A stretch of DNA of 38,797 bases from a virus. The position numbers and the translations under genes were made by a program. Below the pieces are notes generated by a model. It did not search any database. It saw nothing but the letters and a program-made list of their open reading frames with translations, and was not told where the DNA came from. How positions within the stretch are numbered: position 1 is the first letter of the stretch; every line of letters starts with the position of its first letter. Where the stretch lies: IMG/VR virus record IMGVR_UViG_3300049433_000118, positions 1-38,797 of that record. One strand, written 5' to 3'. This document shows positions 3,509-38,797 of the stretch, in pieces.

Positions 3509-3913
3509 GTGGGGAAATCCTGCGAGGCTTGCGGCCGGCGGTTCGAGGCGAAGCGGCTGTCGGCGAAGTACTGCTCGGACCTGTGCCGGAAGCGGGCGCA
3601 GCGCGGGAAGTCCGCGCCGCCCGCGGCGAGCGGCCCTCCGACTGGCGCGCCTGGCGCGGTGGAGCGGCAGGTGCGGGCTGACATCGCGGCGCTGGTGACG
3701 GCTCACCCGATGGGGGAGAGCCTGGCCGCGATGTCTTTCGTGCTGGCGCGGGCGCTGGACGCGGGCACGGACGCGCCGGCGGCGGTGAACCGGGAGCTGC
3801 GCGCGAATCTTGTCGAGCTGAGCAGGCTGGCCGTTGACGACTCTGATGACCTCGCTGACGAGCTGTCCGCCCCTGAGATGTCCTCCCAGGTTCGGGACCC
3901 CGAGGAGCCCTGA
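3509..3913 (+). CDS. Terminase small subunit (probable)
   Basis: A 134-residue protein starting at GTG 3509 with a GGAGGGG Shine-Dalgarno. The N-terminus is a zinc-finger-like module CEACGRRFEAKRLSAKYC followed by SDLCRKRA, seen in many actinophage proteins encoded just before TerL. The middle is helical (RQVRADIAALVTAHP, ELRANLVELSRLAV) and the end is acidic. Small terminases bind the packaging site and deliver DNA to the large subunit. The assignment rests on position, size and the N-terminal finger rather than a strong motif. It ends inside the start region of the ATPase gene. Confidence 0.65.
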   Translation: MGKSCEACGRRFEAKRLSAKYCSDLCRKRAQRGKSAPPAASGPPTGAPGAVERQVRADIAALVTAHPMGESLAAMSFVLARALDAGTDAPAAVNRELRANLVELSRLAVDDSDDLADELSAPEMSSQVRDPEEP

Positions 3914-4793: not shown

Positions 4794-5307
4794 GCAGGAG
4801 AAGCCTCCGCCTCCGCAGTGCGCGCTCGGCATCGAGATCAGCACCAGCAGGCACCGGTGCGCGGTCGGGAAGGCGTACCGGGACCAGGGCCTCGTCACAG
4901 TCGAGGTCGTGTACTACGACCTCCCGGCGGGGGCGGCCGCGTTCGTCGCGGAGCGCTGGACGGCGGATGACCCGGTCGCGGTGGCGCTGGACCCGAAGTC
5001 GCAGTCGGCGACGCTGGCCGGCCCGCTCGCCGAGGCAGGTGTGCTGGTGACGCGGCTGTCGGCGGAGGACGTTGCGGTGGCGCACGGGGAGTTCACCGAC
5101 CTGGTCGCGGCCGGGGGCCTGCGGCACCTGAACCAGGACCCGCTGACGGCGGCGGTCCGCGGCGCGCAGCAGCGGGCGCTGGCGGGCGCGCAGGCGTGGG
5201 AGCGGCGGGTGGCGGCTGACCAGTCCCCGCTGAACGCGTGCACGTTCGCGGTGTTCGAGCTGCTGCGGTACGAGGAACTGGCCACGCCGGGCGTCTGGGA
5301 GGTCTGA
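4786..5307 (+). CDS. Terminase large subunit, nuclease domain (separate ORF)
   Basis: A 173-residue RNase H-fold nuclease domain that normally forms the C-terminal half of TerL. The first strand reads CALGIEISTSRHRCAVG, with Glu where many relatives have Asp. The second acidic position is likely in VAVALDPKSQSAT, and a third lies in HGEFTDLV. The ending, HLNQDPLTAAVRGAQQR with LNACTFAVFELLRYEEL, is typical of TerL C-termini. The start is GTG 4786, 8 nt before the end of the ATPase ORF and in a different frame, with a G-run upstream as a weak ribosome site. It cuts concatemeric DNA during packaging. Either a genuinely split TerL or a frameshifted single gene. Confidence 0.8.
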   Translation: MAEQEKPPPPQCALGIEISTSRHRCAVGKAYRDQGLVTVEVVYYDLPAGAAAFVAERWTADDPVAVALDPKSQSATLAGPLAEAGVLVTRLSAEDVAVAHGEFTDLVAAGGLRHLNQDPLTAAVRGAQQRALAGAQAWERRVAADQSPLNACTFAVFELLRYEELATPGVWEV

Positions 5308-6113: not shown

Positions 6114-6436
6114 CGGGCGCGGCGTGGATGGGCGGGCCGACCGAGGAATGGCGTCACTTCCTATGCTGCTACTCGGCAGCACCGGGTGAGCTGAAGTGCC
6201 AGCGTGATGCCGCCTGGCACGGGATGGTGATCGGCGAGGTCGATCTCATCGCGATGGAGTCCTGCGACGAGCACGTGCCGATTATGAGGCAGGTAGCCGA
6301 CTACGTTCACCAGCTCGTTCACCCATGCGGCATCCCTGACTCGATGTTCCGCTGGCCGGAGAACGAGTGCTACACCGACTGGGACGAGTCGGCTGAGTTC
6401 GCCGCTGAGGTCACTGAGCAGGCGCGGGCGTCGTGA
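6110..6436 (+). CDS. Hypothetical Cys-containing protein upstream of portal
   Basis: A 108-residue soluble protein starting at GTG 6110 (GTGA overlap). It contains CCYSAAPGELKC, CDEHV and two later Cys, with His residues between (DYVHQLVHPCG), which could form zinc sites. The C-terminus is acidic and Glu/Ala-rich. Its stop overlaps the portal start, so it is co-translated with the head operon. No family recognised. Confidence 0.5.
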   Translation: MTGAAWMGGPTEEWRHFLCCYSAAPGELKCQRDAAWHGMVIGEVDLIAMESCDEHVPIMRQVADYVHQLVHPCGIPDSMFRWPENECYTDWDESAEFAAEVTEQARAS

Positions 6437-7857
6437 GGCTGCTCGACCGCCTTATAAGGCGTGACGCGGGTTACTGGGAGGGGCAGGCCAGCGGCGCGGC
6501 GGTCCTGACGAGCTCCTACGGGTCGCCGGACCGGGAGGCGGTGCTGCCGCAGCTGGCGGGCTGGGCGCAGCAGGTCAACGGGTCGGACTCCCCTGTGTTC
6601 TCCGCCATCTTGGTGCGGATGATGCTGCTGGCCGAGGCGCAGTTCCAGTTCCAGGCGAAAGCGGACAAGCACCTGTTCGGGAACGAGACGCTGAGCCTGC
6701 TCGAGAAGCCGTTCGGGCCGGGGTCGACGTCGGGCGAGCTGATCGCCCGGATGGAGCAGGACGCGAGCCTGGCCGGCAACGCCTACATCTGGGCCCCGCC
6801 GGGCGAGGGCCGCCTGGTGCGGCTGCGCCCGGACTGGGTCACGATCGTCTCCGAGCTGGTCCGTACGGACGACGGCGGCAGCTACCGGCGGAAGGTCGGC
6901 TACTGGCACCAGCCGCCGCAGGGCGTCACGGGCCACGGCGCGCCGTTCATGGCACTGGCGGACGAGACGGCCCACTGGCACCCGATCCCGGACCCGGCGG
7001 CGGACTTCCGGGGCATGAGCTGGCTGACGCCGGTGATGCGGGACGTGCAGGGCGACGACGCGATGACCCGCTACAAGGTCAGGTACCTGCAGAATAACGC
7101 GACCCCGAACATCGTGATCCGGTACAGCCAGAAACTGCAGCCGGCCACGGTCGACGCGATCCGGGAGCGGGTTACGGCCCGGTACGGCGGCCCGGACAAC
7201 GCGGGCAAGACCCTGGTACTCGACCAGGGCGCCGACCTGACGCTGGCCGGGAACAGCCTGTCGCAGATGGACTTCAGCAACGTGAGCGTCGACGGGGTGC
7301 AGCGGATCCTCGCCCCGTCCGGCGTGCCGGCGCTGCTGATCGGCCTGGAGTCGATCAAGGGCGCGGGCAAGAGCTACGAGGACGTCATCCGCCGGTTCGC
7401 GGACCTGACCTTGCGGCCGCTGTGGAAGACGCTGTGCGCGGCGCTGGAGGGAGTCGTCCCGGACGTGCCGCAGGGGGCGAGACTGTGGTACGACACCGGG
7501 GCGATCGCGGCGCTGCAGGAGGGCGAGCAGGTCAGGGCGCAGGTCTCGCTGATCCGCGCCCAGGCGCTGCTGGCGTACGGGCAGGCGGGCTACGAGCGGA
7601 TGTCGGCGGTCGCGGCGGTCGAGGCCGGCGACGTGTCGCTGCTGAGGCCGTCGGCGGCCCCGCCGCCGATGCCGGCCGGGAACGTGCAGCACATGCTGCC
7701 GCAGGCGCAGCCGGGGGCGACGGCCACCCCGCTGCCGCCGTCGGCGCCGCGCCTGCCGACGGGGTCGACCTCGCCGGGTGACGGCGGGAACGGGACGCGC
7801 CCGGCGCCGGTGGCGTCGGCGGCACGTCGGGCGCTTAATGGGAGTTCCGGTGGATGA
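6433..7857 (+). CDS. Portal protein (HK97 family)
   Basis: A 474-residue portal of the HK97 type, the dodecameric ring through which DNA enters and leaves the head. Recognisable parts are the N-terminal helix, ASLAGNAYIWAPPGEGRLVRLRPDWVTI (wing/clip region strands), the stem region YKVRYLQNNATPNIVIRYSQKL, and the late block VDGVQRILAPSGVPALLIGLESIKGAGKSYEDVIRRFADLTLRPLW, which is a family signature. The last 70 residues are a disordered Pro/Ala-rich tail. GTG 6433 overlaps the preceding stop. Protease and capsid genes follow, as usual. Confidence 0.92.
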   Translation: MRLLDRLIRRDAGYWEGQASGAAVLTSSYGSPDREAVLPQLAGWAQQVNGSDSPVFSAILVRMMLLAEAQFQFQAKADKHLFGNETLSLLEKPFGPGSTSGELIARMEQDASLAGNAYIWAPPGEGRLVRLRPDWVTIVSELVRTDDGGSYRRKVGYWHQPPQGVTGHGAPFMALADETAHWHPIPDPAADFRGMSWLTPVMRDVQGDDAMTRYKVRYLQNNATPNIVIRYSQKLQPATVDAIRERVTARYGGPDNAGKTLVLDQGADLTLAGNSLSQMDFSNVSVDGVQRILAPSGVPALLIGLESIKGAGKSYEDVIRRFADLTLRPLWKTLCAALEGVVPDVPQGARLWYDTGAIAALQEGEQVRAQVSLIRAQALLAYGQAGYERMSAVAAVEAGDVSLLRPSAAPPPMPAGNVQHMLPQAQPGATATPLPPSAPRLPTGSTSPGDGGNGTRPAPVASAARRALNGSSGG

Positions 7858-9133
7858 GCGGCTGGCCGCCATGATGCGGGCGGCCGGCGCGGTGACGAAC
7901 CCCGGCGGCACCGAGCGGCTGCACGCCTACTGGGTGCACGGCGAGGGCGCCGCAAAAATTGGCTGGATGAAGCCGGGCGATTTTGACCGGTGCGTCCTCG
8001 AGCTCGGCAAGTACATCAAAGACCCGCAGGGTTACTGCGCGAAGGCTCACAAAGAGGCGACCGGCATGTGGCCCGCGCAGCACGCGGCCATGGAGAAGCA
8101 CGCAGGAAGGGCAGCACCGATGGCGGACAGCAAGCCTTACGGCGACGTGAAGTACGCCGACCCGAAGAACGGCAAGTACCCCATCGACACCGCTGACCAC
8201 GCCAAGGCGGCCTGGTCGTACGTCAACCAGGCGAAGAACGCCGGCCAGTACCCGGCGAACGGCGTGACCCTGGCTGAGGTCAAGGCCGCGATCATGGCGG
8301 CGTGCAAGCACTTCGGCATCGACGTGGCCGACGACGGCAAGCAGCCGGCGTCCCGCGCGGAGTTCATGCGGCTGTACCCGCTGGAGGACATCCACATCAT
8401 CCGCTCCGAGCAGGGCGGTGACGGCCGCGTTGTCGAGGCGTACGCCGCGGTGTTCGGCCAGGAAGCGGAGATCCACGACCACGAGGGGCACTACCTGGAG
8501 GTCATCGAGCCGTCCGCGTTCAACCGGGCGATCGACCACGCGTCGCGGGCCCGCGGCGGGTTCGCCGGGTCGGTGAAGGTGCTGTGGAACCACGGCCGGG
8601 ACCTGTCCGGCGCCCCCTCGGACCGGTTCTCCATGCCGATCGGCGTCCCCGTGCACATCGCGGCGGAGGCCCGCGGGGTGCTGACCCGCACCCGCTACAG
8701 CGAGACGCCGCTGGCTGACGAGGTGCTGGAGAACATCCGCAACGGGTCAATCACCGCGCAGTCGTTCGTCGGCCCCATCATGCGCTCGGACCCGCAGCTG
8801 CGCCGCGGGGACCGCTACCGCCCCGACAGCACCGGGGGCCTGCGCACCGTCCGCCGCACCGAGCTGGGCCTGCGTGACTACGGCCCGGTCCTGTGGCCCG
8901 CCTACTCGGGCGCCGAGATCCTCGGCGTCCGCATGTCCACTCCCGGCCAGTTCGGCCCGGACCCGGACGAGCACGAGGAGCAAGACCCCGGCACTCCCTC
9001 CGGTGAGGGACCCGCCGCCGGCGACCCGCTCAGCCGCGATGACGGCGACGAGCACTCGGCCCGGTATCACCAGCACGCGCTGTACGAGCTCCGCAGCAAG
9101 GAGCAGCGAGAGGCGATCGGGCTGGTCTGGTAA
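7850..9133 (+). CDS. Multidomain prohead maturation protease
   Basis: About 427 residues. The C-terminal domain (residues about 185-370) is an HK97-type prohead protease: VEAYAAVFGQEAEI, VKVLWNHG with the catalytic His, GSITAQSFVG with the probable Ser nucleophile, and LRDYGPVLWPAYSGAEILGV. Two extra domains precede it. Residues about 20-80 read AAKIGWMKPGDFDRCV then DPQGYCAKAHKEATG, a small domain known from phage head proteins. Residues about 95-165 read YGDVKYADPKNGKYPIDT then AAWSYVNQ, resembling the DUF6582 type. The start GTG 7850 has GGGAG five nt upstream; ATG 7838 is the alternative. It cleaves scaffold and capsid N-termini during maturation. The tail is acidic. Confidence 0.85.
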   Translation: MDERLAAMMRAAGAVTNPGGTERLHAYWVHGEGAAKIGWMKPGDFDRCVLELGKYIKDPQGYCAKAHKEATGMWPAQHAAMEKHAGRAAPMADSKPYGDVKYADPKNGKYPIDTADHAKAAWSYVNQAKNAGQYPANGVTLAEVKAAIMAACKHFGIDVADDGKQPASRAEFMRLYPLEDIHIIRSEQGGDGRVVEAYAAVFGQEAEIHDHEGHYLEVIEPSAFNRAIDHASRARGGFAGSVKVLWNHGRDLSGAPSDRFSMPIGVPVHIAAEARGVLTRTRYSETPLADEVLENIRNGSITAQSFVGPIMRSDPQLRRGDRYRPDSTGGLRTVRRTELGLRDYGPVLWPAYSGAEILGVRMSTPGQFGPDPDEHEEQDPGTPSGEGPAAGDPLSRDDGDEHSARYHQHALYELRSKEQREAIGLVW

Positions 9134-9156
9134 CGCGCTGAACGGAGTACCGCGTC

Positions 9157-10590
9157 ATGGCGACGCTGAAGGAAAAGTCCGAGGAGATGGCCCGCATCAA
9201 GGGCGAGCTCCAGCGGATGGAAACCTCCGAGGAGACCACCGAGGAGAACGACGGCGACCTGCGGGACACCCTGGTTGAGCGGTGGAAGCAGCTCGACGAG
9301 GAGACCAAGCCGATCATCCGGCGGATGGAGGAGATCCGCGCCATCACCCGCACCGCTCAGGATCCGGCGAACCTCGAGCGGCCCGCCGGGTACGACGGCG
9401 ACGGGAACGGCGGCGGAACCGCGAGGCGTACCGCCCCCGACTTCTGGCCGCAGAGCAACCGCAGCCCGTACGAGGACCTGGACGCGGTCCGCAGTCACGT
9501 CGTCACCCGCGCTGACCTGCGCGCCCGGGCGCTCGACGCGGTCGAGCTGGAGGCTAAGCGGTCCGGGCTGGCGCACGACTTCGCGGAAGAGGTCACCCGC
9601 AAGATCCAGGACGGCGGCACCTACGCGAAGAACAACATCGCGGAGCACTGCCTGCTGACCGGGTCGGAGGAGTACCAGGAGGCGTTCCGCGCTTACCTGG
9701 AGAACCCGCAGGGCATGGCCCAGCGCGCCGCGCTGAGCTTGACCCTGGCAAATGGTGGGTACCTCCTACCGTTCGTACTAGACCCAACGATCATACTAAC
9801 CAACTCGGCCAGCGCGAACCCGTGGCGGCGGATCTCCCGGATCGTGACGACGACCAGCAGCACCTGGAACGGCGTGAACTCGGCCGGCGTCACGGCGCAG
9901 ATGGTCGGCGAGGCGTCGGTGTTCGCGGACGCGACCCCGACGGTCGGCAACGTCGTGATCACGCCGCAGAAGGCGGACGCCTACATCTTCGGCAGCTACG
10001 AGGTGCTCGAGGACACCGACTTCGGGCAGCAGCTCCCGATGCTCCTGGCGGACGCCAAGGACCGGCTGGAGGAGTCCCAGTTCGCCACCGGCAACGGCAC
10101 CCCGCCGAACACCCAGGGCGTCGTGTCCGCCGCCACCACCGTGATCACCACGGCCACGACCCTGGTCATCGCGGTCGGCGACGTGTACGCGCTGCAGGGC
10201 GCGCTCCCGGCCCGCTTCCGCAACTCGGCTAAGGCCGCCTGGGTCGCGAACGTGGCGATCATCAACGCGTTCCGGCAGCTCGACACCGCGGGCGGCGCGT
10301 CGTTCTGGACGAACCTCGGCAAGGGCCAGCCGGAGACGCTGCTGGGCGCCCCGATCTACGAGTCCACGACGATGAGCGGCACCAAGTCCGTCGGGTCGCT
10401 TGAGGCGATCTTCGGGGACTTCCAGCAGTACGTGATTTGCGACCGCGTGGGAGTCAGTATGATTTACGAGCCCTTGGTCAAGGACACGACCACGGGCAGG
10501 CCGACCGGGCAAGCCGCGTGGGCGATGTTCTGGAGGTTCGGCGCGCAGGTCAGCACGCCGAATGCCTTCCGCGTTATGAAGGGCGCCTAG
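9157..10590 (+). CDS. Major capsid protein (HK97 fold)
   Basis: A 477-residue HK97-family capsid protein. The first 60 residues are a charged coiled coil (EEMARIKGELQRMET, then EETKPIIRRMEEIR), equivalent to the delta/scaffold region removed by the protease. The mature shell part follows from about residue 190 (LTLANGGYLLPFVLDP), with the E-loop/A-domain signatures VGEASVFADATPTVGNVVITPQKADAYIFGSYEVLEDT, LEESQFATGNGTPPNTQGV and a C-terminal GVSMIYEPLV stretch. A CGGAG Shine-Dalgarno precedes the ATG. It lies directly after the protease, as in HK97-like phages. Confidence 0.93.
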   Translation: MATLKEKSEEMARIKGELQRMETSEETTEENDGDLRDTLVERWKQLDEETKPIIRRMEEIRAITRTAQDPANLERPAGYDGDGNGGGTARRTAPDFWPQSNRSPYEDLDAVRSHVVTRADLRARALDAVELEAKRSGLAHDFAEEVTRKIQDGGTYAKNNIAEHCLLTGSEEYQEAFRAYLENPQGMAQRAALSLTLANGGYLLPFVLDPTIILTNSASANPWRRISRIVTTTSSTWNGVNSAGVTAQMVGEASVFADATPTVGNVVITPQKADAYIFGSYEVLEDTDFGQQLPMLLADAKDRLEESQFATGNGTPPNTQGVVSAATTVITTATTLVIAVGDVYALQGALPARFRNSAKAAWVANVAIINAFRQLDTAGGASFWTNLGKGQPETLLGAPIYESTTMSGTKSVGSLEAIFGDFQQYVICDRVGVSMIYEPLVKDTTTGRPTGQAAWAMFWRFGAQVSTPNAFRVMKGA

Positions 10591-10687: not shown

Positions 10688-11368
10688 ATGGATGAAAAGA
10701 AGTGCTCCCGGTGCGGCCAGGTCAAGCCGCTGACGGAGTTCCACCGGATGGCCGCCGGCGCTGGGGGCGTCCGCTCTGACTGCAAGCCGTGCCACCTGGA
10801 CTACATGAGGTCCAGCTACGTCCCGCGCGTGCACGAGCCCGAGCAGATGGTGTGCCCTCAGTGCGGGGGGAGCTTCACCCGCGTCAGGACGCAGGGCCAG
10901 CCGAGGGTCTACTGCTCGCGTAAGTGCACGATGGCGGCCAGCGAGCAGCGGAAGGTGGACCGCAACGCCGGGTCGGGGCCGCGCCGCTGCAGTTGCGGCG
11001 CCGAGGTGGCCACCCGGGTAGGCAAGCCCGTCTGCCCGGACTGCCAGAAGGACCCTCGTCCGGATGCGCAGGTTCGCGACCGGGCCCGGACGCTGCGCGC
11101 CTACGGCCTGACCGAGGCCGACTGGGACGGCCTCGTCAAGCGCCAGGGCAACCGCTGCGCCATCTGCCGCACTGATAAGCCGGGCGGCCGCGGCGAGCGC
11201 TGGCACATCGATCACGATCATGTAACAGGCCAGGTACGCGGCCTGCTGTGCCACCGCTGCAACATGGGCATCGGGTTCTTCCTCGACGACCCTGGCACCC
11301 TCAAGGCGGCGGCCCGGTACGTGGCCAGGCACCGGCAGGCGGAACTCTTCCCAGGAAAGGCAGGCTGA
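10688..11368 (+). CDS. HNH endonuclease, Endonuclease VII-like, with extra Zn modules
   Basis: A 226-residue protein. The C-terminal domain (residues about 140-220) matches the recombination endonuclease VII / HNH type: YGLTEADWDGLVKRQGNRC, AIC, WHIDHDHVTGQVRGLLC and HRCNMGIGFF, with the His-Asp-His catalytic core and the zinc Cys pairs. Two small N-terminal zinc modules precede it: CSRCGQVKPLTEFH with CKPC (residues 5-35), and CPQCGGSF with YCSRKC (about 56-80); a third Cys cluster is CSCG/CPDC. It sits alone between capsid and head accessory genes behind a hairpin and a leaderless-type promoter, typical of a free-standing homing-type insertion, though a role in resolving DNA branches during packaging is possible. 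Confidence 0.82.
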   Translation: MDEKKCSRCGQVKPLTEFHRMAAGAGGVRSDCKPCHLDYMRSSYVPRVHEPEQMVCPQCGGSFTRVRTQGQPRVYCSRKCTMAASEQRKVDRNAGSGPRRCSCGAEVATRVGKPVCPDCQKDPRPDAQVRDRARTLRAYGLTEADWDGLVKRQGNRCAICRTDKPGGRGERWHIDHDHVTGQVRGLLCHRCNMGIGFFLDDPGTLKAAARYVARHRQAELFPGKAG

Positions 11369-14889: not shown

Positions 14890-15444
14890 ATGCAGACGAT
14901 CTGGTCGGCGCCGGTAGGGCCGCTTTCATCGGCGGCCGGATCCGCGGTCACCGCCGCGGCGCTGACCGCCGGCACGCCCGTCCCGCCGCCGATCATCCCG
15001 GGCGGCACCCTCCAGCTAGGGTCACGGCTCCTGCTGGAGGCGGACCTGGAGATGACGTCGGCGTCGGCGACGCCGACGCTGGCCCTCGGGTTCTACATCG
15101 GCGCCGTGGGCGGCGCGATCGGGTCGGCGACGCTGGTCGCCGCGACCCCGGCGAACGCGCTGTCCGCCTCCGCCGCGGCGTGGCCGGTCAAGCTGCGGTA
15201 CCGCGGGACGATCCGGGTGCTCAGCCCGTCCGCCGCGGTCATCCAGGGGACGGCCGAGCAGCTGTACGGCACGTCGCTGACCGCCTGGACGTCAACCCCG
15301 TTCCCGGTGACGGCGGCCGCCCGGACCGTCTCGGCGCTGAACACGCAGCAGAACAACCAGCTTGACGTCGGGATCACCCTGTCCTCCGTGACCGGGTCGC
15401 CGTCGGTTACCGTCACCGGGTTCTACGCCGAGATCCTCGGGTGA
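14890..15444 (+). CDS. Structural protein, beta-rich fibre-like
   Basis: A 184-residue protein, Ala/Thr/Ser-rich with many strands (LLLEADLEMTSASATPTLALGFYIG, KLRYRGTIRVLSPSAAVIQG). It ends GSPSVTVTGFYAEILG, a jelly-roll-like pattern common in phage receptor-binding or decoration proteins. A GGGGAG Shine-Dalgarno lies about 11 nt before the ATG. It stands between another beta-rich protein and the giant fibre gene, so the three probably form one surface-structure module. Confidence 0.5.
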   Translation: MQTIWSAPVGPLSSAAGSAVTAAALTAGTPVPPPIIPGGTLQLGSRLLLEADLEMTSASATPTLALGFYIGAVGGAIGSATLVAATPANALSASAAAWPVKLRYRGTIRVLSPSAAVIQGTAEQLYGTSLTAWTSTPFPVTAAARTVSALNTQQNNQLDVGITLSSVTGSPSVTVTGFYAEILG

Positions 15445-18934: not shown

Positions 18935-19819
18935 GTGGCGCGCTACCCGCTGAACCAGCCCATCCGCCTCAGTACCACGGTCCGCGACGTCACCGGCACG
19001 CTGGTCAACCCTGGCACGCTGACGCTGCTGGTGAAGCTGGCCCAGGCTGACGGCACCTGGCTGACGACGGGCACGTACGCCAGTCCTGCCAACGATTCCA
19101 CCGGTACCTACCATCAGGACATCCCGGTCACCGACCTCGCCGCCATCGGCCACTACCAGTACGCGTGGACGAGCACCGGCACCGGGGCCGGCGTCAGCTG
19201 GGGCGACTTCGACGTGTTCGACCCGTTCGAAACCGCCGTGCTGCCGCTCGGCGACGCGAAAGACCAGCTGAACATCCCGCAGGCGACCACCACGTTCGAC
19301 AGCGAGATACAAAGCTACATTGCGACGATCCAGTCGAACCTGGAGCGGATGACCGGCGGCCCGCTGGTCAACCGGGCGTTCACCGAGCGGACGGAGATGC
19401 AGGCCGGCCAGACGGTCATCCCGGTGCGGCAGCGGCCCCTGGTGTCGGTCACCAGCATCACCGGCGCGTCGGGCGGGGCGATTGACATTTCGGCTGGCCT
19501 GGACCTCGACGTCAACGCGGGCCTGATCCGCCGGAAGCTGGGGCTGCCGTTCTACGGGCCGTTCTTCGCCTGGCTGCCGCAGGTCACCGTCACCTACGTC
19601 GCCGGGTGGGGCACGAGCGTCCCGGCGGCGTTCAATGTCGCCGCGCGGATCATCATCCAGCACCTGTGGGAGTCGCAGCGGGGGCCGCTGGCGATGCCGA
19701 TGGCGGGCGAGCCCGCCGTCATGGTGCCCGGGTTCGGGTTCGCGATCCCCAACCGGGCCGCCGAGCTACTCAACGGTAGCCAGGCGGGCATCCCCTTTAT
19801 GAGCGAGGCGTACCTCTAG
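18935..19819 (+). CDS. Head-tail connector (HK97 gp6-like) with N-terminal beta domain
   Basis: A 294-residue protein. The C-terminal two thirds fit the gp6-like DNA-packaging/connector family: LGDAKDQLNIPQATTTFDSEIQSYIATIQSNLERMTGGPLVNRAFTE is the helical N-part, followed by PVRQRPLVSVTSI, PQVTVTYVAGWGTSVP and AARIIIQHLWESQRGP. The first 100 residues form an extra Ig-like domain (RLSTTVRDVTGTLVNPGTLTLLV). GTG 18935 is preceded by GGGAGG. It docks below the portal to form the neck. Its stop overlaps the next start. Confidence 0.75.
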   Translation: MARYPLNQPIRLSTTVRDVTGTLVNPGTLTLLVKLAQADGTWLTTGTYASPANDSTGTYHQDIPVTDLAAIGHYQYAWTSTGTGAGVSWGDFDVFDPFETAVLPLGDAKDQLNIPQATTTFDSEIQSYIATIQSNLERMTGGPLVNRAFTERTEMQAGQTVIPVRQRPLVSVTSITGASGGAIDISAGLDLDVNAGLIRRKLGLPFYGPFFAWLPQVTVTYVAGWGTSVPAAFNVAARIIIQHLWESQRGPLAMPMAGEPAVMVPGFGFAIPNRAAELLNGSQAGIPFMSEAYL

Positions 19820-23072: not shown

Positions 23073-26000
23073 ATGGCCGGCTCCCAGACGCTCCGCTTCG
23101 ACATCATCGGCGACGGCTCGTCTGCCTCACGCGCCTTCAAGGACACCGCCAGCAACGCGGCCCTCGCCGCGCGCGGCGCGAAGCAGCTCAGTGACACCCT
23201 CGGCATCCAGAGCAAGACGGCGCAGGCATCGGCGGCGGCGACAGTGTCGCTGGCGAAGTCCGACAGCGTCCTGCGCGACGCGCAGCTGGCGCTGGCCGGC
23301 GCCACCGACGATGCCTCCGGCAGCCTCGGTGAGATGAAGCTCCGCCTGGACGCGCTGAACGGCAAGGTCGCCGCCGCCCGGGTCAGCCTCGACGGCGACA
23401 AGGAAGCGCAGGCGCGGCTCGACGCGATCAGCGCCCGCCTCACCGACCTGGACCACAAGACGTCGACGCCGAGCCTTGACGTACAGGGCGTCGCGAAGGC
23501 GACCGCCGAGCTGTCCGCGATCGACGTGGCGCTCGACAAGGTCGGCGGCAAGGGAGGGTCGGCGCAGGCCGCGGCGTCGTCGGTCGGCCTGCTGGCCAGC
23601 CCGATGGGCGCGGCGGTCGCCGCCGGGGTGGCACTGTCGCCGGTGCTCATTACCGCCAGCATCGGCATGGCCGGGCTGGGCGCGGCGGCGGCCGACACGA
23701 TCTCGCCGATCCTGCAGGCGGGGACCGCCACCAAGAAGGCGCAGCAGGCGCTGGCCTCCCTGGACCCGGCGCAGCGGGCCGCCTACGACTCCCTCGGCCT
23801 GCTCAAGACCCAGTTCGGCGGGTTCGCGAAGTCGCTTGAGCCGGAAACCCTCGGTCTGTTCAACAAGGGCCTTACCCTCGCCTCCGGGCTGCTCGGCGAC
23901 GTCGAGCCCGTCGCCGCGGCGACCGGGAAGGCCCTGGGCGGCGCGGTCGGCGAGATCGACGCGGAGTTCCGCTCCGGGACGTGGCAGAAGTTCTTCGGCT
24001 TCATGGCGGCGACCGCCGGGCCGGACATCAAGCTGCTCGGCAGCCTGTTCGTGTCCCTGGCCGACGACCTCCCGCCGCTGCTGGAGGACCTCCAGCCGGT
24101 GGCCACCGGGTTCCTCGGGATCGCCACCGACGCCCTCAAGGCCGTCGGCGCGCTCGAGCGATTCGAGGGCGTCGCCCGGCAGGCGAACCAGGTCGCCGAC
24201 CAGTCGCAGAAGTCGGGGGGGAACGACCCGTTCTCGCTCGGGGCGATCGCCGGCGATGCCAAGAGGGCCGGCGAGGGGCTGCTCAACTCGCTGTACCCCG
24301 GGTTCACGAAGGTCACCGGCGCGGCCGGGAAGTTCGCCAAGTCGCAGGGTGACGCGGCCGGCGCGGCGAGCAAGAACGCCGAGGCCACCCGGCAGCAGGC
24401 CGCCGCGCAGCAGGCAGCCGTCGCCGCGGCGACCGGCCTGTCCGGCAACCTGACCATCCTGGAGGGCCGGTACAACCTGACGGCGGCGCAGGCGACGGCG
24501 CTGGTGAAGGCGGCCGGGCAGACGACCGGGGCACTGTCCGGCAATGACGCGGCGGCGACCGGGGCGCTGCACGCGGTCGAGGGGTACGCGAACGCGAGCC
24601 TGGCGGCGAAGTCCCCTACCGAGCAGCTGGCGGCCGACGTCGCGGTGCTGGACAACAACACGCTCGGCGCCACGCTGCAGCTCAAGGCGTTCACCGACGC
24701 GTGGAACGTCCTGGTGGGGAACTCGCTGTCCGACCAGCAGGCCGTCCTCGCCGACGAGTCCGCGTTCGACGCCCTGACGGGCGCGATCAAGAGCGGCGGG
24801 GCGGGCTCGCTGCAGGCCCGGCAGGCGTTCGTCTCCTACGTGCAGCAGATCGGCACCAGCATCTCCACGCTGCAGCAGAACGGCGCCTCGGTCGGCCAGA
24901 TCAACAGTGAGTACGAGACGAACATCAAGCGGCTGCAGGCGCTGCACAACCTGACCCCGGCCCAGCGCGCCGACGTCCAGGGGCTGATCAGGGACTACGA
25001 CACGTGGGCGGCGTCCACGGCCGGGCTGAACAGCCAGACGTCGGCGGCGGCGCAGACGATCAAGGACAAGTTCACCGCGAACCTCAAGGCCCTCGGCGAA
25101 TTCACGCCGAGTATCACCGGCGACGTCAACAACCTGGCGAACTCGGTGCTGAAGACCGGCACGACCAGCGCGGCGACCAACGGCGACCGGGCGAAGCTGA
25201 TCGCCGACCTGAGGCAGTCCGGGCTCAGCGCCCAGTCGGCGGCGAAGCTCGTCGACGACCTCACCGGCTCCCTGGAGCGGGTGCCGAAGTCGGTGAGCAC
25301 GCACGTCAGCGTGACCGCGTCCGCTAACGGCGCGATCACCGCCGCCCTCGGCGGCACGAACACCTCCTCGATCGCGAACATCAAGGCACTGCTGCAGTTC
25401 GGCGCCAACGGCATGCTCGTCTCCGGCGGGACCCCGGGCAAGGACAGCGTCCTGGTCGCGGCCATGCCCGGTGAGGTCATCGTGCCGACCGCCATGGTCC
25501 AGGGCGGCGCTGTCGATCACCTGCGCGGCAAGATCCCCGGCTTCGCGGGCGGCGGGCAGGTCAACCTCGGCGCGCCCTACCAGTTCGTGAGCGGCGACGA
25601 GAACAGCTTCGTCACGGGCATGGGCAAGCTGTTCATGAGTCAGGCGAACGCCGCGTTCCAGGCCAGCGCCAAGGCAGCGGCGGCGCTGGCCGGCTCCCCG
25701 GTGCCGTTCAGCAGCGCGGCCGGGATCACCCAGTGGGAGCCGGACGTGGCACGGGTGCTGGCCATGCTCGGGCTGCCGCTGGCTGACCTGCCCACGGTGA
25801 TGTCCCAGATGGGGACGGAGAGCGGCGGGAACCCGAACGCGATCAACCTCACCGACATCAACGCGCAGAACGGGGACCCGTCCAAGGGGCTGATGCAGGT
25901 GATCAGCGAAACCTTCGCCGCCTACCGCAGCCCGGCGCTGAGCAGCAACATCTACGACCCGCTCGCGAACATCTTCGCCGGGTTGAACTACGCGGTTCAC

Positions 26001-26300
26001 CGCTACGGGAATCCCGGCTGGCTGAGCGTGCTCGGGCACGGCCACGGCTACGACAGCGGCGGCTACCTGCCGACCGGCCTGTCGCTGGCCTACAACGGCA
26101 CCGGGAAGCCCGAGCCGGTCATCCCCGCGCGGCAGTTCATCCCCGGCGGCCGGGGCAGCAGCGGCGGCGAGATGCACATCAAGCTGGAACTGGGCAGCAG
26201 CTTCCGGCGGACCGGGCTGACGCCTGAGCAGGTCGCGGACATCCGCGCCACCGTAAACGGCCACGGCGGGAACGTGCAGACGGCGTTCGGGCGGTCGTGA
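23073..26300 (+). CDS. Tape measure protein with lytic transglycosylase domain
   Basis: 1075 residues, the tail-length ruler. It is Ala-rich and helical through most of its length, with hydrophobic segments in the middle (LLASPMGAAVAAGVALSPVLITASIGMAGLG) thought to insert into the host membrane on ejection. Residues about 905-990 are an SLT/transglycosylase-like domain: VMSQMGTESGGNP with the catalytic Glu, DPSKGLMQVISETFAAY, and IFAGLNYAVHRYGNP. Around residues 800-830, PGKDSVLVAAMPGEVIVP is a common tape measure C-terminal motif. By the usual 1.5 angstrom per residue rule the tail would be about 160 nm. It follows the G/GT genes as expected. Confidence 0.9.
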   Translation: MAGSQTLRFDIIGDGSSASRAFKDTASNAALAARGAKQLSDTLGIQSKTAQASAAATVSLAKSDSVLRDAQLALAGATDDASGSLGEMKLRLDALNGKVAAARVSLDGDKEAQARLDAISARLTDLDHKTSTPSLDVQGVAKATAELSAIDVALDKVGGKGGSAQAAASSVGLLASPMGAAVAAGVALSPVLITASIGMAGLGAAAADTISPILQAGTATKKAQQALASLDPAQRAAYDSLGLLKTQFGGFAKSLEPETLGLFNKGLTLASGLLGDVEPVAAATGKALGGAVGEIDAEFRSGTWQKFFGFMAATAGPDIKLLGSLFVSLADDLPPLLEDLQPVATGFLGIATDALKAVGALERFEGVARQANQVADQSQKSGGNDPFSLGAIAGDAKRAGEGLLNSLYPGFTKVTGAAGKFAKSQGDAAGAASKNAEATRQQAAAQQAAVAAATGLSGNLTILEGRYNLTAAQATALVKAAGQTTGALSGNDAAATGALHAVEGYANASLAAKSPTEQLAADVAVLDNNTLGATLQLKAFTDAWNVLVGNSLSDQQAVLADESAFDALTGAIKSGGAGSLQARQAFVSYVQQIGTSISTLQQNGASVGQINSEYETNIKRLQALHNLTPAQRADVQGLIRDYDTWAASTAGLNSQTSAAAQTIKDKFTANLKALGEFTPSITGDVNNLANSVLKTGTTSAATNGDRAKLIADLRQSGLSAQSAAKLVDDLTGSLERVPKSVSTHVSVTASANGAITAALGGTNTSSIANIKALLQFGANGMLVSGGTPGKDSVLVAAMPGEVIVPTAMVQGGAVDHLRGKIPGFAGGGQVNLGAPYQFVSGDENSFVTGMGKLFMSQANAAFQASAKAAAALAGSPVPFSSAAGITQWEPDVARVLAMLGLPLADLPTVMSQMGTESGGNPNAINLTDINAQNGDPSKGLMQVISETFAAYRSPALSSNIYDPLANIFAGLNYAVHRYGNPGWLSVLGHGHGYDSGGYLPTGLSLAYNGTGKPEPVIPARQFIPGGRGSSGGEMHIKLELGSSFRRTGLTPEQVADIRATVNGHGGNVQTAFGRS

Positions 26301-32042: not shown

Positions 32043-33020
32043 ATGACCACACCCCGCAGCACCCCGTTCCGCGCGGGCGGCACCGACGGGCCGAGGGCCA
32101 AGACCAGGTTCACGCAGGCGCAGGCCGGCCCGGCCGTGCTGCTCGCCGACGTCTCAGAATTTCAGGCCGATTTGGCCGACGCTGTCTACCTGCGGTGGTC
32201 CAAGGCGGTCGTGATCCGCGCCGCCTACGGCAGCCAGCACGATGACAAGGCGTGGTACGGGGGGCAGCGCCGCCAGCTGCTGCACGCCGGCGGCGCGCGG
32301 TTCATTGGGATTTATCAATATTTGGTCGCCGGGCAGGACGGGGCCGCCCAGGCGGACGCGCTGCACCGGCTCGTCGGCGCGCTCCGGCCGGGAGAGGTCC
32401 TCATCGCGGACTTCGAGGAGGGCCAGCACGCGATGCTGACCGCCTGGTACAACCGGATGATCCTCCTGTACGGGACGGGCATCCGCCCGTACCTGTGGAC
32501 CTACAGCGGCCTGTTCTTCGCGGAGGCGAACGGGGCGGCGCCGGTCGAGTGGGTCGCCGCCTACGGGCAGGCCGAGCCGGCAGTGCCGCACAAGCTGTGG
32601 CAGTTCACCTCGTCGTTCCCGGTGCCGGGAGTGGGGCGGTGCGACTGCTCGGTGTTCCACGGCACGATCGACCAGCTGGCCGCGCTCGCCTACCAGGGGT
32701 CCAAGCCCGCGCCGCAGCCGGACTTCGGGCCGCCGGCCCGCGTCACGGTCCGCGCCGGGGACACGAACGTGGAGGTGCTGACGGCGGACGCGCCGGCCGG
32801 GATGACGCCGGGGCACTTCGAGGTGTCGGTGTACACGGGGTCGTTCCCGTCGGCGGCGACGCTCGTGGACAGCTACCCCCGGTTCATGGGGATGGCCCCC
32901 AAGTCGTTCGGCGGCCTCGGCGGGCTCGCCTCCGGCACGCACATGACCTGCCGGGTTGTGGCCGTGGACGCGGACGGCACCCGCAGCGCTTACGCCGACG
33001 TCCACTTCGAGATGCCGTGA
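32043..33020 (+). CDS. Endolysin, GH25 lysozyme (muramidase)
   Basis: A 325-residue endolysin. Residues about 30-220 are a GH25 barrel: LLADVSEFQADL (first catalytic Asp region), KAVVIRAAYGSQHDDKAW, FIGIYQYLV, VLIADFEEG (D-x-E catalytic pair), PYLWTYSGLFFAEAN, and LWQFTSSFPVPGVGRCDCSVFHG near the end, which replaces the usual W-Q-Y-x-x-x-G-x-V-D-x-x. The C-terminal 90 residues form a fibronectin-III-like domain (ARVTVRAGDTNVEVLTADAP, then MTCRVVAVDADGTRSAYADV), probably for wall binding. It has no signal peptide, so export relies on the holin. It hydrolyses MurNAc-GlcNAc bonds. Confidence 0.88.
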   Translation: MTTPRSTPFRAGGTDGPRAKTRFTQAQAGPAVLLADVSEFQADLADAVYLRWSKAVVIRAAYGSQHDDKAWYGGQRRQLLHAGGARFIGIYQYLVAGQDGAAQADALHRLVGALRPGEVLIADFEEGQHAMLTAWYNRMILLYGTGIRPYLWTYSGLFFAEANGAAPVEWVAAYGQAEPAVPHKLWQFTSSFPVPGVGRCDCSVFHGTIDQLAALAYQGSKPAPQPDFGPPARVTVRAGDTNVEVLTADAPAGMTPGHFEVSVYTGSFPSAATLVDSYPRFMGMAPKSFGGLGGLASGTHMTCRVVAVDADGTRSAYADVHFEMP

Positions 33021-34989: not shown

Positions 34990-35526
34990 TCAGCCCTCGC
35001 CGTGGCGGCGGAGGATCTCGGCGACCTGCTCAGGGTCGGTGCCGTGGAAGTGCATGCGGCAACGCTCGCTGCGGCCCTTGCTCTGGTTGCAGGGCAGGCA
35101 GAGAGTCTGGAAGCCTTCAGGAAAGCCGTTCTTGATCAGCCAGCGATATACGGGTAGTGGGCTCCGGCTCTTCCCGCCGAGTTCTCTGCGGTGCCGCCCG
35201 CCATCACCGTTGACGTGGTCGATCGACGGCTGTTCCGTGCTGCCGCAGCAGGCGCAAGACCAGCCGTAATGGTCAAACACGGCCTGACGGAGCGTCTCGT
35301 GGTTGCGCTTGCGGCGCGCTCTGGGCTTGGCCGGATCTGCCCAGTAGCGTTCGCGCTGCAATTGAGGACCGTCCGGGTTGGCGCGATACGCCGCCAGCTT
35401 CCCCGGCTTGTGGCACGCCTTGCAGACGTTCATGCGCCCGTCAGGCTTGCCGCGGTCCCGGTAGAACTCTTCCAGCGGCTTGTCCGCGTTGCAGCGCTGG
35501 CACGGCTTAGTCAAGGCTGGCGTCAT
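34990..35526 (-). CDS. HNH endonuclease
   Basis: A 178-residue protein. The N-terminal zinc module CQRCNADKPLEEFYRDRGK then CKACHK is of the kind also found in the HNH gene at 10688. The C-terminal HNH domain reads CACCGSTEQPSIDHVNGDGGRHRREL, with the catalytic D-H, then FQTLCLPCNQSKGR with C-x2-C-N, and a closing Cys/His stretch. The ATG has AAGGGAG upstream and overlaps the previous gene by 20 nt. It is probably a free-standing homing-type or early-region nuclease. Confidence 0.8.
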   Translation of the reverse strand: MTPALTKPCQRCNADKPLEEFYRDRGKPDGRMNVCKACHKPGKLAAYRANPDGPQLQRERYWADPAKPRARRKRNHETLRQAVFDHYGWSCACCGSTEQPSIDHVNGDGGRHRRELGGKSRSPLPVYRWLIKNGFPEGFQTLCLPCNQSKGRSERCRMHFHGTDPEQVAEILRRHGEG

Positions 35527-35908
35527 CGTTCTCCCTTACCTGCCGCATGATCGCGGCGACCTGTTCGGCATCGGCGCCGGCGCCGACGTGCAGGTGCCAG
35601 TGCTGGTGCAGCTCCCGCGCCGCGGGCGGCTCGATCGCGGGCCGCCCCGGCGCGGGAAGCTCGTGCAGCGCCGGAGCCGGGACGATCCCCCGGGGCACCG
35701 GGGCCGGGTGCCGCGCCCGGTACAGCAGGAACACGGCCAGCGCCGCCACGGTCAGGACGACAACCGCCGCTGCGGCGGCCAGCAGCACGATGACCGCGGT
35801 CGCGACCGCCGCGGCGGCGCCGGACGCGGCCAGGATGACGACGCCGGCGACAAGCAGGATCACGCCGCCGCCGGGGCTGCGGTCGTCGGTCTGCCAGGTG
35901 CCCTTCAC
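35507..35908 (-). CDS. Membrane protein, reverse operon
   Basis: A 133-residue protein from GTG 35908 (GTGA overlap with the gene before it). It has two adjacent TM helices (GGGVILLVAGVVILAASGAAAAVATAVIVLL and VVLTVAALAVFLLYRARH), then a Pro-rich linker and a C-terminal domain, LHQHWHLHVGAGADAEQVAAIMRQV. It lies in the cluster leading away from the FtsK-like translocase; small membrane proteins beside tra genes (Spd proteins) in Streptomyces plasmids share this size and topology, but similarity is only general. Confidence 0.55.
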   Translation of the reverse strand: MKGTWQTDDRSPGGGVILLVAGVVILAASGAAAAVATAVIVLLAAAAAVVVLTVAALAVFLLYRARHPAPVPRGIVPAPALHELPAPGRPAIEPPAARELHQHWHLHVGAGADAEQVAAIMRQVRENDDASLD

Positions 35909-36150
35909 TGCCGGGCCTTCCTTCGCTCGGCGAGCGCCACGCGCCCGCGGTGCACGGTCCTCGCGCCGAGGCGGATCCGCCTGCCGCCGTCGCAGTGGCG
36001 GCACTGGCCGAACCGCGCCCGCTTGCTGCCGGGGTTGCGCCCGCTGCCCTCGCAGCGGCGGCACGGCCGGTACGGCCACAGGTAGAGGGTGACCACCCGC
36101 CCGGCGGCGAGCAGCAGGATGATGACGATCCACGTCAGGGCGGCGCTCAC
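35905..36150 (-). CDS. Membrane-anchored zinc-finger protein (DnaJ-type CxxCxGxG)
   Basis: An 81-residue protein from GTG 36150 (GTGA overlap). There is one TM helix (ALTWIVIILLLAAGRVVTLYLW), then CRRCEGSGRNPGSKRARFGQC and RHCDGGRRI, i.e. one complete C-x2-C-x-G-x-G ... C-x2-C zinc unit like those of DnaJ, and a basic tail. The finger would be on the cytoplasmic side. It may recruit a partner to the membrane near the translocase; inferred. Confidence 0.6.
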   Translation of the reverse strand: MSAALTWIVIILLLAAGRVVTLYLWPYRPCRRCEGSGRNPGSKRARFGQCRHCDGGRRIRLGARTVHRGRVALAERRKARQ

Positions 36151-36608
36151 GTGACGTGCTCCAGCGGGCAGTCCTCGAGCCCGTCCCGGTACGCCCGGCA
36201 GGCGTGCCGCGCGCACTCGTCGTCCCGGCAGAGCCGGTAGTCGTGCGCCTGGCGCGCCGCGGGCCTCCTGGCGGCCGCCGGGCGCTTCTCCCGCGCCTTG
36301 CGGCGGCGCTCGGCAGCGGCCGCCTTCCGGCGGTCCGCGGCGGCCTTGCGCCGCGCCCTCGCCGTCTCCCGGCGCCGCGCCGCGGCGTCACGGCGGCGCT
36401 GGGCCTGGCGCTCGCGTTTCTCGGCCCGCTCGGCGGCGGCCTTGCGGCGCTTGAAGTCCGTGCTGACGGCGCAGGCATGCGCCAGCGGGTTCGTGTACCG
36501 CTTGCCGCACGTGCCGCACTTCACCGAGACCTGGCGCGCCCGCTGGCGCACGGCGCGCTTCAGCGGCGCCTGGACCTTCCGGCGGACGACGCGCTTGATC
36601 AGTCCCAT
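36147..36608 (-). CDS. Arg/Ala-rich basic zinc-finger protein
   Basis: A 153-residue protein. MGLIKRVVRRKVQAPLKRAVRQ is followed by a C-x2-C ... H-x-C finger (VKCGTCGKRYTNPLAHAC), then a 65-residue helix of Lys/Arg/Ala/Glu, and a final Cys-rich part (YRLCRDDECARHACRAYRDGLEDCP). It is strongly basic and probably binds nucleic acid. ATG 36608 is preferred; an ATG at 36629 lies inside the palindrome. It is the first gene downstream of the GTGCAGCG repeat block, in the same direction as the translocase. Confidence 0.55.
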   Translation of the reverse strand: MGLIKRVVRRKVQAPLKRAVRQRARQVSVKCGTCGKRYTNPLAHACAVSTDFKRRKAAAERAEKRERQAQRRRDAAARRRETARARRKAAADRRKAAAAERRRKAREKRPAAARRPAARQAHDYRLCRDDECARHACRAYRDGLEDCPLEHVT

Positions 36609-36620
36609 GTGATAACCCTG

Positions 36621-36730
36621 CCGCTGCATGTGCAGCGGGTACGCTGCACGTCCTGACCTGCGAAATCACCCTGGCCCGCTGCACCCGCTGCACGGCTCAC
36701 CCCTCCCGGCCTGCGGTGCCGCGTGCAGCG
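36621..36730. repeat. Cluster of GTGCAGCG 8-mers at the 3' end of the translocase gene
   Basis: In the minus-strand sense, GTGCAGCG occurs at 36686-36693, 36677-36684 and 36642-36649, with ATGCAGCG at 36622-36629; inverted copies lie at 36630-36637 and 36723-36730. Two form a tandem GTGCAGCGG pair, two form a perfect 8-bp stem with a 4-nt loop (36630-36649), and CCGCTGCA-TG-TGCAGCGG (36621-36638) is a second dyad. Candidate recognition site for the translocase or an operator. Confidence 0.75.
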
Positions 36731-38797
36731 GCATCCTCGACGTCGCGGCGGTAGCAGCCCTTCCTGACCGCGCCCGAGCGCCCCGGCGGGTACCGCACGT
36801 CGGCGCTGCGCACCTCGAGGTCGCGGCACTGCTGGGACACCGCGTCGGCCGTCGTGCCGCCCCAGCGGTCAGGGAACTGGCCGGCCAGCCGCTCGGCCAG
36901 GACACCCCAGTGGAGCTGGGTATCGGCACCGAACACGGCGAGGACGTCGCCCAGGACGTCGCGGTCGTCGCGGGAGTCCTCCAGTCCTGCCGCCATGCCG
37001 GACAGCGTCCCGGCCTGCTCGCGCAGCCGGCGGCCGGCCAGCAGGACCTTCTCCGCGTCCCGGCCGTCCGCCAGGTACGTCCGGACCGTCGGCGAGCGGT
37101 CGGAGGCGCCGCGCAGGATGCCGACGCCCTTGTACTCCGGCAGCAGCGCGGAGGTGTCCAGTCCCTCGGAGTACGCGCCGGCGCCCAGGCACAGCTCTGA
37201 GACCTGCCATGAGCTGGTGCGCAGCCCGAAGCGGATGGCGAAGTTGTCGCGGAAGCTGGTGAACTGCTGGCCGAGCTCGCCGCCGCCGCCGACGCCGGAC
37301 GGCCGCTGCGTCGACCCGAGGATGATGACCCCGGCGCCCGGCGCCACCTTGATCAGGTAGGTGAGCAGCTTCGCCGCCTCGAGGGAGTCCTTGCCCGCCT
37401 CGTAGATCTCCTGGAACTCGTCCATCACCAGCACCCGGACCGGCATGGCGTAGCGCGGGTCGCGGGCGATCTCCCTGGTCAGCTTGCCCTCGGGGCAGAT
37501 CTTCGGGTCCATCTGCGACAGCCGCTCGTACCGGCCCTGGACGTCGGCCTTGATGTCCATCAGCGTGTCGCCGAAGACCTGCAGCGGCAGGCCGTCCCTG
37601 GTCGGCGTCAGCCCGAACGCGCACGAGTTCGCGACCAGCGCGAACTTCCGCCAGTCGGGGGAGCCCTTGAAGTCGAACACGTCAAGCTTCACCGTCGGGT
37701 CGAGGACGGCCCACAGCGCCAGCAGCCGCGCGCTGAACGTCTTCCCGGCCCTCGGCAGCGCCGAGACGAGCACCGAGTTCCACATCAGCGCCACGCTCAC
37801 CAGGGCACCGCGCTCGTCGAGGCCGAGCGGCGCGGGCTTCCAGATGTCGGATGGCTTGCAGGCCAGCAGCGGGGTGCGGCCGACCGGGACGGCGAGCGGG
37901 TCACGGTCGGCGACCCACAGCGCGTGCCTGCGGTGCGAGGTGGGGTCGCGGTGCAGGAACACCTGCGAGACGGTCACGTCCAGGCCGGAGGCGATGCCCG
38001 GCCGCGCCTTCACCGCGTCGTCCAGGCCCTTGCCGTAGGGCAGGTCGATCACGACGCGTGAGCCGTCGCCGTCCCTGCTCATCGTGGAGCCGAAGCTGAC
38101 CTGCTGGTTCGGCTTCACCGGGTCGCCGAGCCCGGCCGCGTAGTACGCGCGGAGCACGACGTCGGCGTTGATCAGCCGGAACCTCGGCGCGGTCATGCTC
38201 GGCGTGACGATCGGCCTGTCCTCCGGCCGCCCGGCGCGGGCCAGCAGCGGAAGCGCGACAGTACCGATCACGGCCCACGCCCACCAGGGCGCGAACCGGG
38301 CGGTCAGCACAGCGGCGAGCAGGACGGCGAACGCGCCGATGCCCGTCAGGACGCGGCGGTACTCGTGCGTCTTGCGCCAGTCGGCCTGCTGGCGCCGGTA
38401 CTCCTGGCCGTCCCCGTCAGCGATCGCCTGCGAGAGCAGGATGCCCTGCTCGCTGACGAAGACGTAACCGAACAGCCGCCCGGCCAGCCGGAGGGCGCCG
38501 ACGACCGCCCACAGCACCGCGAGCAGCAGGTACCACGGGGACCGGACGGCGTGGAACGCGAGGCTGTGGCCGGCGTCCGCGGCGCGCGCGGCCGCCGCCG
38601 AGCGGGCGCCCTCGAGCGTCCGCAGGTGCTGCGGGATGACCGGCAGCCGGGCCGCCTCCTGCGGCAGCACGGCCAGCGCGTCGCCGTCGTGCACCGGGGC
38701 GGCCGGGCCGTCCGGCTCGTCGTCGAGAGCGACCTCGAACGACGTGTCCAGGGGGGCCTCAGCCTCCCCGCCCAGGGGTGGCTGGAGGGCGGGAAGG
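36697..38797 (-). CDS. FtsK/SpoIIIE/TraB-type DNA translocase, 5'-truncated
   Basis: At least 699 residues; the frame is open to the window edge, so GTG 38694 is probably internal. An acidic N-terminal part is followed by two TM regions (SPWYLLLAVLWAVVGALRL, and IGAFAVLLAAVLTARFAPWWAWAVIGTVAL). The motor has Walker A SALPRAGKTFSAR, then LDVFDFKGSPDW, and Walker B VRVLVMDEFQEIY, then VIILGSTQRPSG (sensor-like) and NFAIRFGLRT. The C-terminal 120 residues contain RWGGTTADAVSQQCRDLEV, a possible small winged-helix-like region. TraB-like proteins move double-stranded DNA between mycelial cells in Streptomyces plasmids; FtsK moves chromosome ends. The gene's 3' end carries 8-mer repeats, which favours the TraB comparison. 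Confidence 0.85.
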   Translation of the reverse strand, partial: LPALQPPLGGEAEAPLDTSFEVALDDEPDGPAAPVHDGDALAVLPQEAARLPVIPQHLRTLEGARSAAAARAADAGHSLAFHAVRSPWYLLLAVLWAVVGALRLAGRLFGYVFVSEQGILLSQAIADGDGQEYRRQQADWRKTHEYRRVLTGIGAFAVLLAAVLTARFAPWWAWAVIGTVALPLLARAGRPEDRPIVTPSMTAPRFRLINADVVLRAYYAAGLGDPVKPNQQVSFGSTMSRDGDGSRVVIDLPYGKGLDDAVKARPGIASGLDVTVSQVFLHRDPTSHRRHALWVADRDPLAVPVGRTPLLACKPSDIWKPAPLGLDERGALVSVALMWNSVLVSALPRAGKTFSARLLALWAVLDPTVKLDVFDFKGSPDWRKFALVANSCAFGLTPTRDGLPLQVFGDTLMDIKADVQGRYERLSQMDPKICPEGKLTREIARDPRYAMPVRVLVMDEFQEIYEAGKDSLEAAKLLTYLIKVAPGAGVIILGSTQRPSGVGGGGELGQQFTSFRDNFAIRFGLRTSSWQVSELCLGAGAYSEGLDTSALLPEYKGVGILRGASDRSPTVRTYLADGRDAEKVLLAGRRLREQAGTLSGMAAGLEDSRDDRDVLGDVLAVFGADTQLHWGVLAERLAGQFPDRWGGTTADAVSQQCRDLEVRSADVRYPPGRSGAVRKGCYRRDVEDAAARGTAGREG

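Follow-up and report, generated by a model that had tools for sequence, protein, structure and literature searches.

The DNA analysed here (the window, an entire viral contig record of 38,797 bases) is probably the structural half of a temperate actinophage equipped with a TraB–clt transfer module, in which the winged helix of an FtsK-like motor is inferred to recognize an array of 8-mer repeats and to direct the pumping of double-stranded DNA between mycelial compartments. The family and fold of the motor, the clustering of the sites, their conserved position, their lineage-specific sequence, their co-variation with the motor and the recurrence of the arrangement on phages are all supported computationally. 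A TraB/clt interpretation had been put forward in an earlier, sequence-only reading of this DNA, and it is sustained by homology to TraB of pSVH1 (E = 6e-19), by the equivalent placement of the clt locus in that plasmid, by lineage-specific repeat clusters in relatives and by a winged-helix residue that tracks the repeat.

The motor gene occupies positions 36697–38796 on the minus strand and was identified by tblastn, fold and alignment as encoding a TraB/FtsK-like, membrane-anchored dsDNA translocase. Its 5′ end is cut by the end of the contig, leaving an open frame of 699 residues from which, based on alignment with the motor of phage L002, only about 10 residues are missing. An AlphaFold2 model (mean pLDDT 86) comprises a four-helix N-terminal region of membrane type, followed by an FtsK motor and, at the C-terminus, a segment resembling a winged helix, and the N-terminal membrane segments are evident both in hydropathy and as model helices between residues 61 and 189. 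Foldseek assigned the FtsK motor fold (match to 6t8o, E = 4e-14, probability 1.00), with FtsK–DNA structures ranking at the top and the conjugation coupling protein TcpA as the next best family, consistent with the initial description of a membrane-anchored FtsK-family ATPase ending at 36697. Walker A (ALPRAGKTF, 37735–37761, minus strand) contains G351 and K352, which are invariant in a 34-row alignment, and in Walker B (VLVMDEFQE, 37408–37434, minus strand) E460 is invariant and D459 nearly so. The C-terminal winged-helix domain (residues 627–699; 36700–36918, minus strand) aligns with the C-terminus of pSVH1 TraB and is the putative repeat-reading domain; in the model its strands (627–629, 665–668 and 677–682) and helices (630–640 and 650–659) follow a helix-turn-helix-plus-wing pattern. 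Of the features that define TraB, an FtsK/SpoIIIE-type fold with Walker A and B motifs, N-terminal membrane segments and a C-terminal winged helix are present in this protein; hexamers, a pore activity and DNA transfer are attributed to it by analogy only.

Searches with the motor by tblastn matched 39 plasmid records, mostly from Streptomyces. TraB of pSVH1 is a homologue (28% identity over residues 249–624 and 23% overall), and the motor of the Pseudonocardia element pPaSha2 matches at 31% over 92% of the protein. No close relative of the window motor was detected by tblastn among 50,697 phage records in INPHARED, where other motor queries returned only distant FtsK-like proteins, including translocases of large Streptomyces phages. 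In the HMM search proposed with the sequence-only reading, no model in the curated Pfam and NCBIfam libraries, which include TraB and FtsK_SpoIIIE models, matched the motor above its cut-off, and the PHROG search returned only a generic FtsK-like family. With NCBIfam NF041214 (plasmid_TraB) the motor scored 12 bits against a cut-off of 800; it was not assigned to this equivalog because the score lies under the cut-off of what is a narrow model. As a separate observation, the motor C-termini in pPaSha2 (4843–5133), G022 (14952–15173) and G026 (25906–26142) show a weak similarity, under cut-off, to the C-terminal portion of DUF3631 (RepAM); a DNA-reading domain may on this basis be common to the transfer motor and the replication protein of actinomycete integrative and conjugative elements (AICEs).

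Five exact copies of GTGCAGCG and one variant, ATGCAGCG, lie within 109 bp (36622–36730) around the motor stop codon, in accordance with the six 8-mers within 110 bp that had been noted there. The variant (36622–36629, minus strand) is followed by exact repeats at 36630–36637 (plus), 36642–36649 (minus), 36677–36684 (minus), 36686–36693 (minus) and 36723–36730 (plus), the last of which falls within the final codons of the motor gene. In third-order Markov simulations of the whole window, none of 1500 runs contained any 8-mer at five copies per 110 bp. The window as a whole holds 12 exact copies of GTGCAGCG against 4.7 expected; since the seven copies outside the cluster are close to expectation, the excess is local, and an evenly common 8-mer, which would have refuted the sequence-only reading, can be discounted. 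Compared with the arrays of integrated elements, the orientation of the repeats in the window is less regular.

A further 119 relatives were gathered from viral contigs and GTDB genomes, with every named host belonging to the Actinomycetota; the motors were dereplicated to 73, and repeated 8-mers were sought locus by locus, with no sequence presupposed. A significant 8-mer cluster marks the 300-bp stretch at the motor 3′ end in 48 of the 73 relatives (66%); the corresponding shares are 6.2% for random 300-bp windows and 12 of 71 for motor 5′ ends (p = 6e-40). As a positive control, the documented TraB motif of the pSVH1 clt, GACCCGGA, was recovered at the equivalent 3′-end position. About a third of the relatives, including the phage contigs L018, L040, L042 and L043, lack a cluster of exact 8-mers, and two viral contigs (L009, 330–620, and L013, 9690–9990) carry a CCGCTACC array of the usual geometry at the motor 5′ end. 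Arrays with 5–10 sites over approximately 170 bp were seen. The 8-mer itself varies by lineage, being CGCTGCAC in the window, CCGCGACC in phage L002 and Micromonosporaceae, CCGCTACC in L007 and Actinoallomurus, CGCTACAC in Frankia, CCCCTCTA in Streptomyces-type phages, and CTAGCGGC or CCCGTCAC in other lineages. Despite this change in sequence (CGCTACC, CGCGACC, CGCTAC[AC]), site spacing and orientation are largely kept in the best-sampled lineages. Functional clts are known for only a few plasmids, and none has been described for the model AICE pSAM2 (PMC9513070); the survey supplies predicted cis-sites for about fifty motors.

Within the window's clade (34 loci), 670 alignable motor columns were scanned for co-variation with base 5 of the repeat, which is either T or G. 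A single column separates the two classes without exception, corresponding to residue 595 in the 665-residue numbering and residue 629 in the 699-residue frame, where His, Ser or Pro accompanies T and Gln accompanies G. In the window this residue is His629 (codon 36910–36912, minus strand), which sits just ahead of the invariant Trp that opens the winged helix. On a tree made without the winged-helix domain, repeat base 5 changes three times, and residue 629 changes alongside it every time. It is important to note that with only three independent changes a sign test falls short of significance (p = 0.25) and that the column was found by scanning. In addition, the base-5 G call in L008 and L010 derives from the motif CGCGATCC and depends on how that motif is framed. 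Residue 629 and repeat base 5 constitute a named pair that can be swapped in a binding or mating assay. A wing residue (the X of ‘X-LKG’) initially appeared promising as the determinant of base 5 and was rejected, the association being broken by L008, L010 and L073. Among Frankia/Pseudofrankia motors (L065–L071 versus L062 and L064), a wing Gln occurs with CGTTAC and an Arg with CGCTACAC; judged from these sequences, the Frankia/Pseudofrankia wing residue is a possible second specificity position.

Many arrays, including that of the window, also enclose a core akin to the pSVH1 element CTGACCTGCGCAAAC, which is found in other Streptomyces plasmids as well. In the window, this core-like element, CTGACCTGCGAAATC (36653–36667, plus strand), has two mismatches to the pSVH1 sequence and is assigned no role. 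With the pSVH1 sequence held fixed and up to three mismatches allowed, the CTGACCTGCRCAAAC core was found near 12 of 72 motors versus 1.6% of random windows. The pattern CTGACCTGC[GA]CAAAC has 21 exact sites in 22 actinomycete genomes (~200 Mb), compared with none for the reversed control pattern, and no recognizable motor was found within 1.5 kb of any of these 21 copies. Because exact genomic copies occur far from motors, the core is not motor-specific, and CTGACCTGCRCAAAC was rejected as a universal clt core. Instead of being specific to transfer, the core may serve as a site for a host factor. By eye, many of the exact sites look intergenic, and some lie beside tRNAs or terminator-like hairpins.

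On its plus strand, the remainder of the window carries a siphovirus operon for head, tail and lysis; a minus-strand block follows, in which the motor gene comes last and runs off the contig. PHROG matches confirm the siphovirus structural operon that had been anticipated: the terminase large subunit TerL (3834–5307; phrog_9), the portal, head maturation protease and major capsid protein (6433–10590; phrog_12, phrog_80 and phrog_10), a head–tail adaptor (18935–19819; phrog_442) and a tape measure protein (23073–26300; phrog_5448), all on the plus strand. A GH25-type endolysin is encoded at 32043–33020 on the same strand (Pfam PF01183, E = 1.1e-5, slightly under the curated cut-off). TerL consists of two overlapping open reading frames (3834–4793 and 4786–5307), an ATPase part and a nuclease part, and is split at the same place in the relative G001 (6695–8067). 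Two endonuclease VII/HNH genes were also observed, one between the capsid gene and the subsequent genes (10688–11368) and the other in the minus-strand block (34990–35526).

Downstream of the motor, the first gene past the repeat array encodes a basic CxxC zinc-ribbon protein (36147–36608, minus strand), with a homologue equally placed in L002 and L006. It is followed by a small membrane protein with a zinc ribbon (35905–36150, minus strand), similar to proteins located 3′ of the motor in L006, in pPaSha2 (L003) and apparently in L004, and by a second small membrane protein to which no function was assigned (35507–35908, minus strand). The proteins at 35507–36150 had been likened to Spd proteins; they are indeed small and membrane-associated, but the real Spd-type protein is the DUF2637 protein that relatives encode upstream of the motor, a region that in the window would lie beyond the contig end. 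DUF2637 was detected above cut-off in 12 of 32 records, usually 0.8–1.9 kb upstream of the motor.

Motors of this kind are distributed over actinomycete plasmids, integrated elements and uncultured temperate phages. TerL is encoded on the same record as the motor in 20 of 35 records (19 viral contigs, including the window, and pPaSha2), a portal accompanies the motor on 15 records, and the phrog_10 capsid is present in 15 of 32. In six Streptomyces-type phages the motor and TerL are 3.3–4.6 kb apart, which indicates that the motor belongs to the phage genome order, and one whole phage clade keeps the two side by side. Several of the motor-bearing phages encode tyrosine recombinases. By comparison, in bacterial genomes most motors sit on contigs devoid of TerL, and these loci are probably AICEs. 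Phage motors and those of other elements alternate in the tree, such that 14 label changes are needed, and it follows that cassettes have moved several times. The window motor falls among plasmid, integrated-element and phage motors with a C-terminal DNA-recognition domain, and not, as would have counted against the sequence-only reading, among phage proteins devoid of one.

The nearest complete relative, L006 (45 kb, 64%), combines TerL, a portal, a capsid protein, a tyrosine integrase, a DUF2637-like protein, the motor and the array. The window is a metagenomic fragment without the integration and regulation region; of the marks of a temperate siphovirus (HK97-type head genes, tape measure, lysin and integrase) it shows the head, tail and lysis genes; the integrase is absent from the fragment and present in L006 and L007. 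AICEs are defined by integration, replication and transfer functions (Int, Rep and Tra; PMC3218068) without virion genes, a definition that the window does not meet: Tra occurs together with a full virion operon, integrase is found only in relatives, and neither the window nor L006 yielded a plasmid-type replication gene (RepAM or Prim-Pol). A resemblance to AICEs remains, in that motors of integrated elements are up to 57% identical, with equally placed clusters, and L006 has both Int and Tra. Of the two forms proposed earlier, a phage-plasmid and a phage/AICE hybrid, the hybrid fits this contig better, because L006 has a tyrosine integrase and a plasmid-type replication gene was not found. 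A phage-plasmid is defined by genes for extrachromosomal replication or partition alongside virion genes, and the fragment lacks that region.

Among the closest described systems is TraB–clt of pSVH1 (NC_007431; Vogelmann et al. 2011, via PMC3583192 and PMC4170104), in which the winged helix of TraB reportedly reads 8-bp repeats within clt. The window shares with it the FtsK-like motor, the N-terminal membrane part, the C-terminal winged helix, an 8-mer cluster at the 3′ end of the gene and a similar CTGACCTGCRCAAAC core, and differs from it in the 8-mer (CGCTGCAC rather than GACCCGGA) and in being a phage instead of a rolling-circle plasmid. The circular 41.9-kb element pPaSha2 (CP052773) of Pseudonocardia alni, annotated only as a plasmid, is a phage-plasmid with the same kind of module, uniting terminase, portal, capsid, integrase, DUF2637 and an FtsK/TraB motor. 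By eye, it also has a repeat-rich stretch with a core beyond the motor's neighbouring gene, but motor identity to the window is 31%, and its repeats are different and less exact. Titles cited in PMC4487206 and PMC7157519 present pZL12, or phage ZL12 (NC_013420; Zhong et al. 2010), as a conjugative Streptomyces plasmid-phage, and its transfer by conjugation is recorded in PMC3583192. This phage genome transferring by conjugation, with an FtsK-like gene (gp071), is comparable in principle, but it is a 90-kb ParAB plasmid. Its motor was not matched by tblastn with the window motor, hhalign gave 80% probability for the motor domain only, and no 8-mer cluster was found at the gp071 3′ end. With gp071 only remotely related and lacking such a cluster, pZL12 was ruled out as the same system. 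TraB–clt on plasmids and the conjugative plasmid-phage pZL12 are known already; no report of TraB–clt modules on temperate actinophages was found in the open literature, subscription papers being mostly outside the search, so the modules predicted here appear unreported within that scope.

Operator function, FtsK-type segregation and vestigial cargo remain possible as alternatives, and each explains fewer facts than a TraB–clt module does. If the repeats were operators, a repressor of phage or AICE type (GntR/KorSA-like, for example) would bind them and control the genes downstream of the motor; inverted 8-mers ahead of a start codon are a typical operator layout, the array fills the space separating the motor from its downstream neighbour, and L007 encodes a GntR regulator. 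Yet in the 48 relatives (of 73) with clusters the array keeps its place by the motor 3′ end even where the downstream genes differ, the only residue that tracks the repeat lies in the winged helix of the motor, the recognition motif of pSVH1 TraB is equally positioned, and the arrays are longer than most operators, so that this explanation is considered unlikely.

It also seems improbable that the motor is an FtsK-like aid to segregation, dimer resolution or packaging that moves no DNA between cells. The guide sites of FtsK are spread along the genome, whereas the window's 8-mer is clustered; packaging is already served by TerL; and both the association with DUF2637 Spd-type proteins and the kinship with plasmid transfer motors favour transfer. 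What keeps this alternative under consideration is the FtsK fold itself, together with the tyrosine recombinases of several phages and the distant FtsK-like translocases of large Streptomyces phages. Lastly, the mobility of cassettes implied by the 14 label changes would allow for a transfer cassette that was acquired from an integrated element and is no longer used by the phage. Such a relic is very doubtful given that the motor frame is intact with conserved Walker motifs, that array and motor have changed together in phages as well (L002 compared with the window and L007), and that an entire phage clade has retained motor and TerL together.

For a TraB–clt module, a simple model based on analogy, and the most likely one, would suggest that once the phage genome is excised, circular or replicating, the motor, anchored in the membrane, forms a hexamer on its array. 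The hexamer would then drive intact double-stranded phage DNA through septa or mating contacts of the mycelial host, assisted by the upstream Spd-type DUF2637 protein seen in relatives. Hexamer formation, array binding and DNA pumping are inferred, and the transfer of phage DNA between compartments or cells purely so. In this manner, the phage genome would spread without lysis, within the mycelium or to neighbours, in addition to its spread in virions. More generally, we tentatively propose, as a possibility rather than a conclusion, a recurrent class of temperate actinophages that spreads through virions and through TraB-driven movement of dsDNA, exchanges cassettes with AICEs, and has motor and cis-site specificities that change together by a residue-to-base code. 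The virus in the window, apparently temperate and with soil actinomycetes as hosts, may be capable of spreading by two routes, as virions and through conjugation-like transfer. Phages and conjugative elements are usually regarded as separate routes of gene transfer; with the one-protein conjugation system of actinomycetes present on many temperate phages, phage DNA, and host DNA with clt-like sites, might therefore move without virions.
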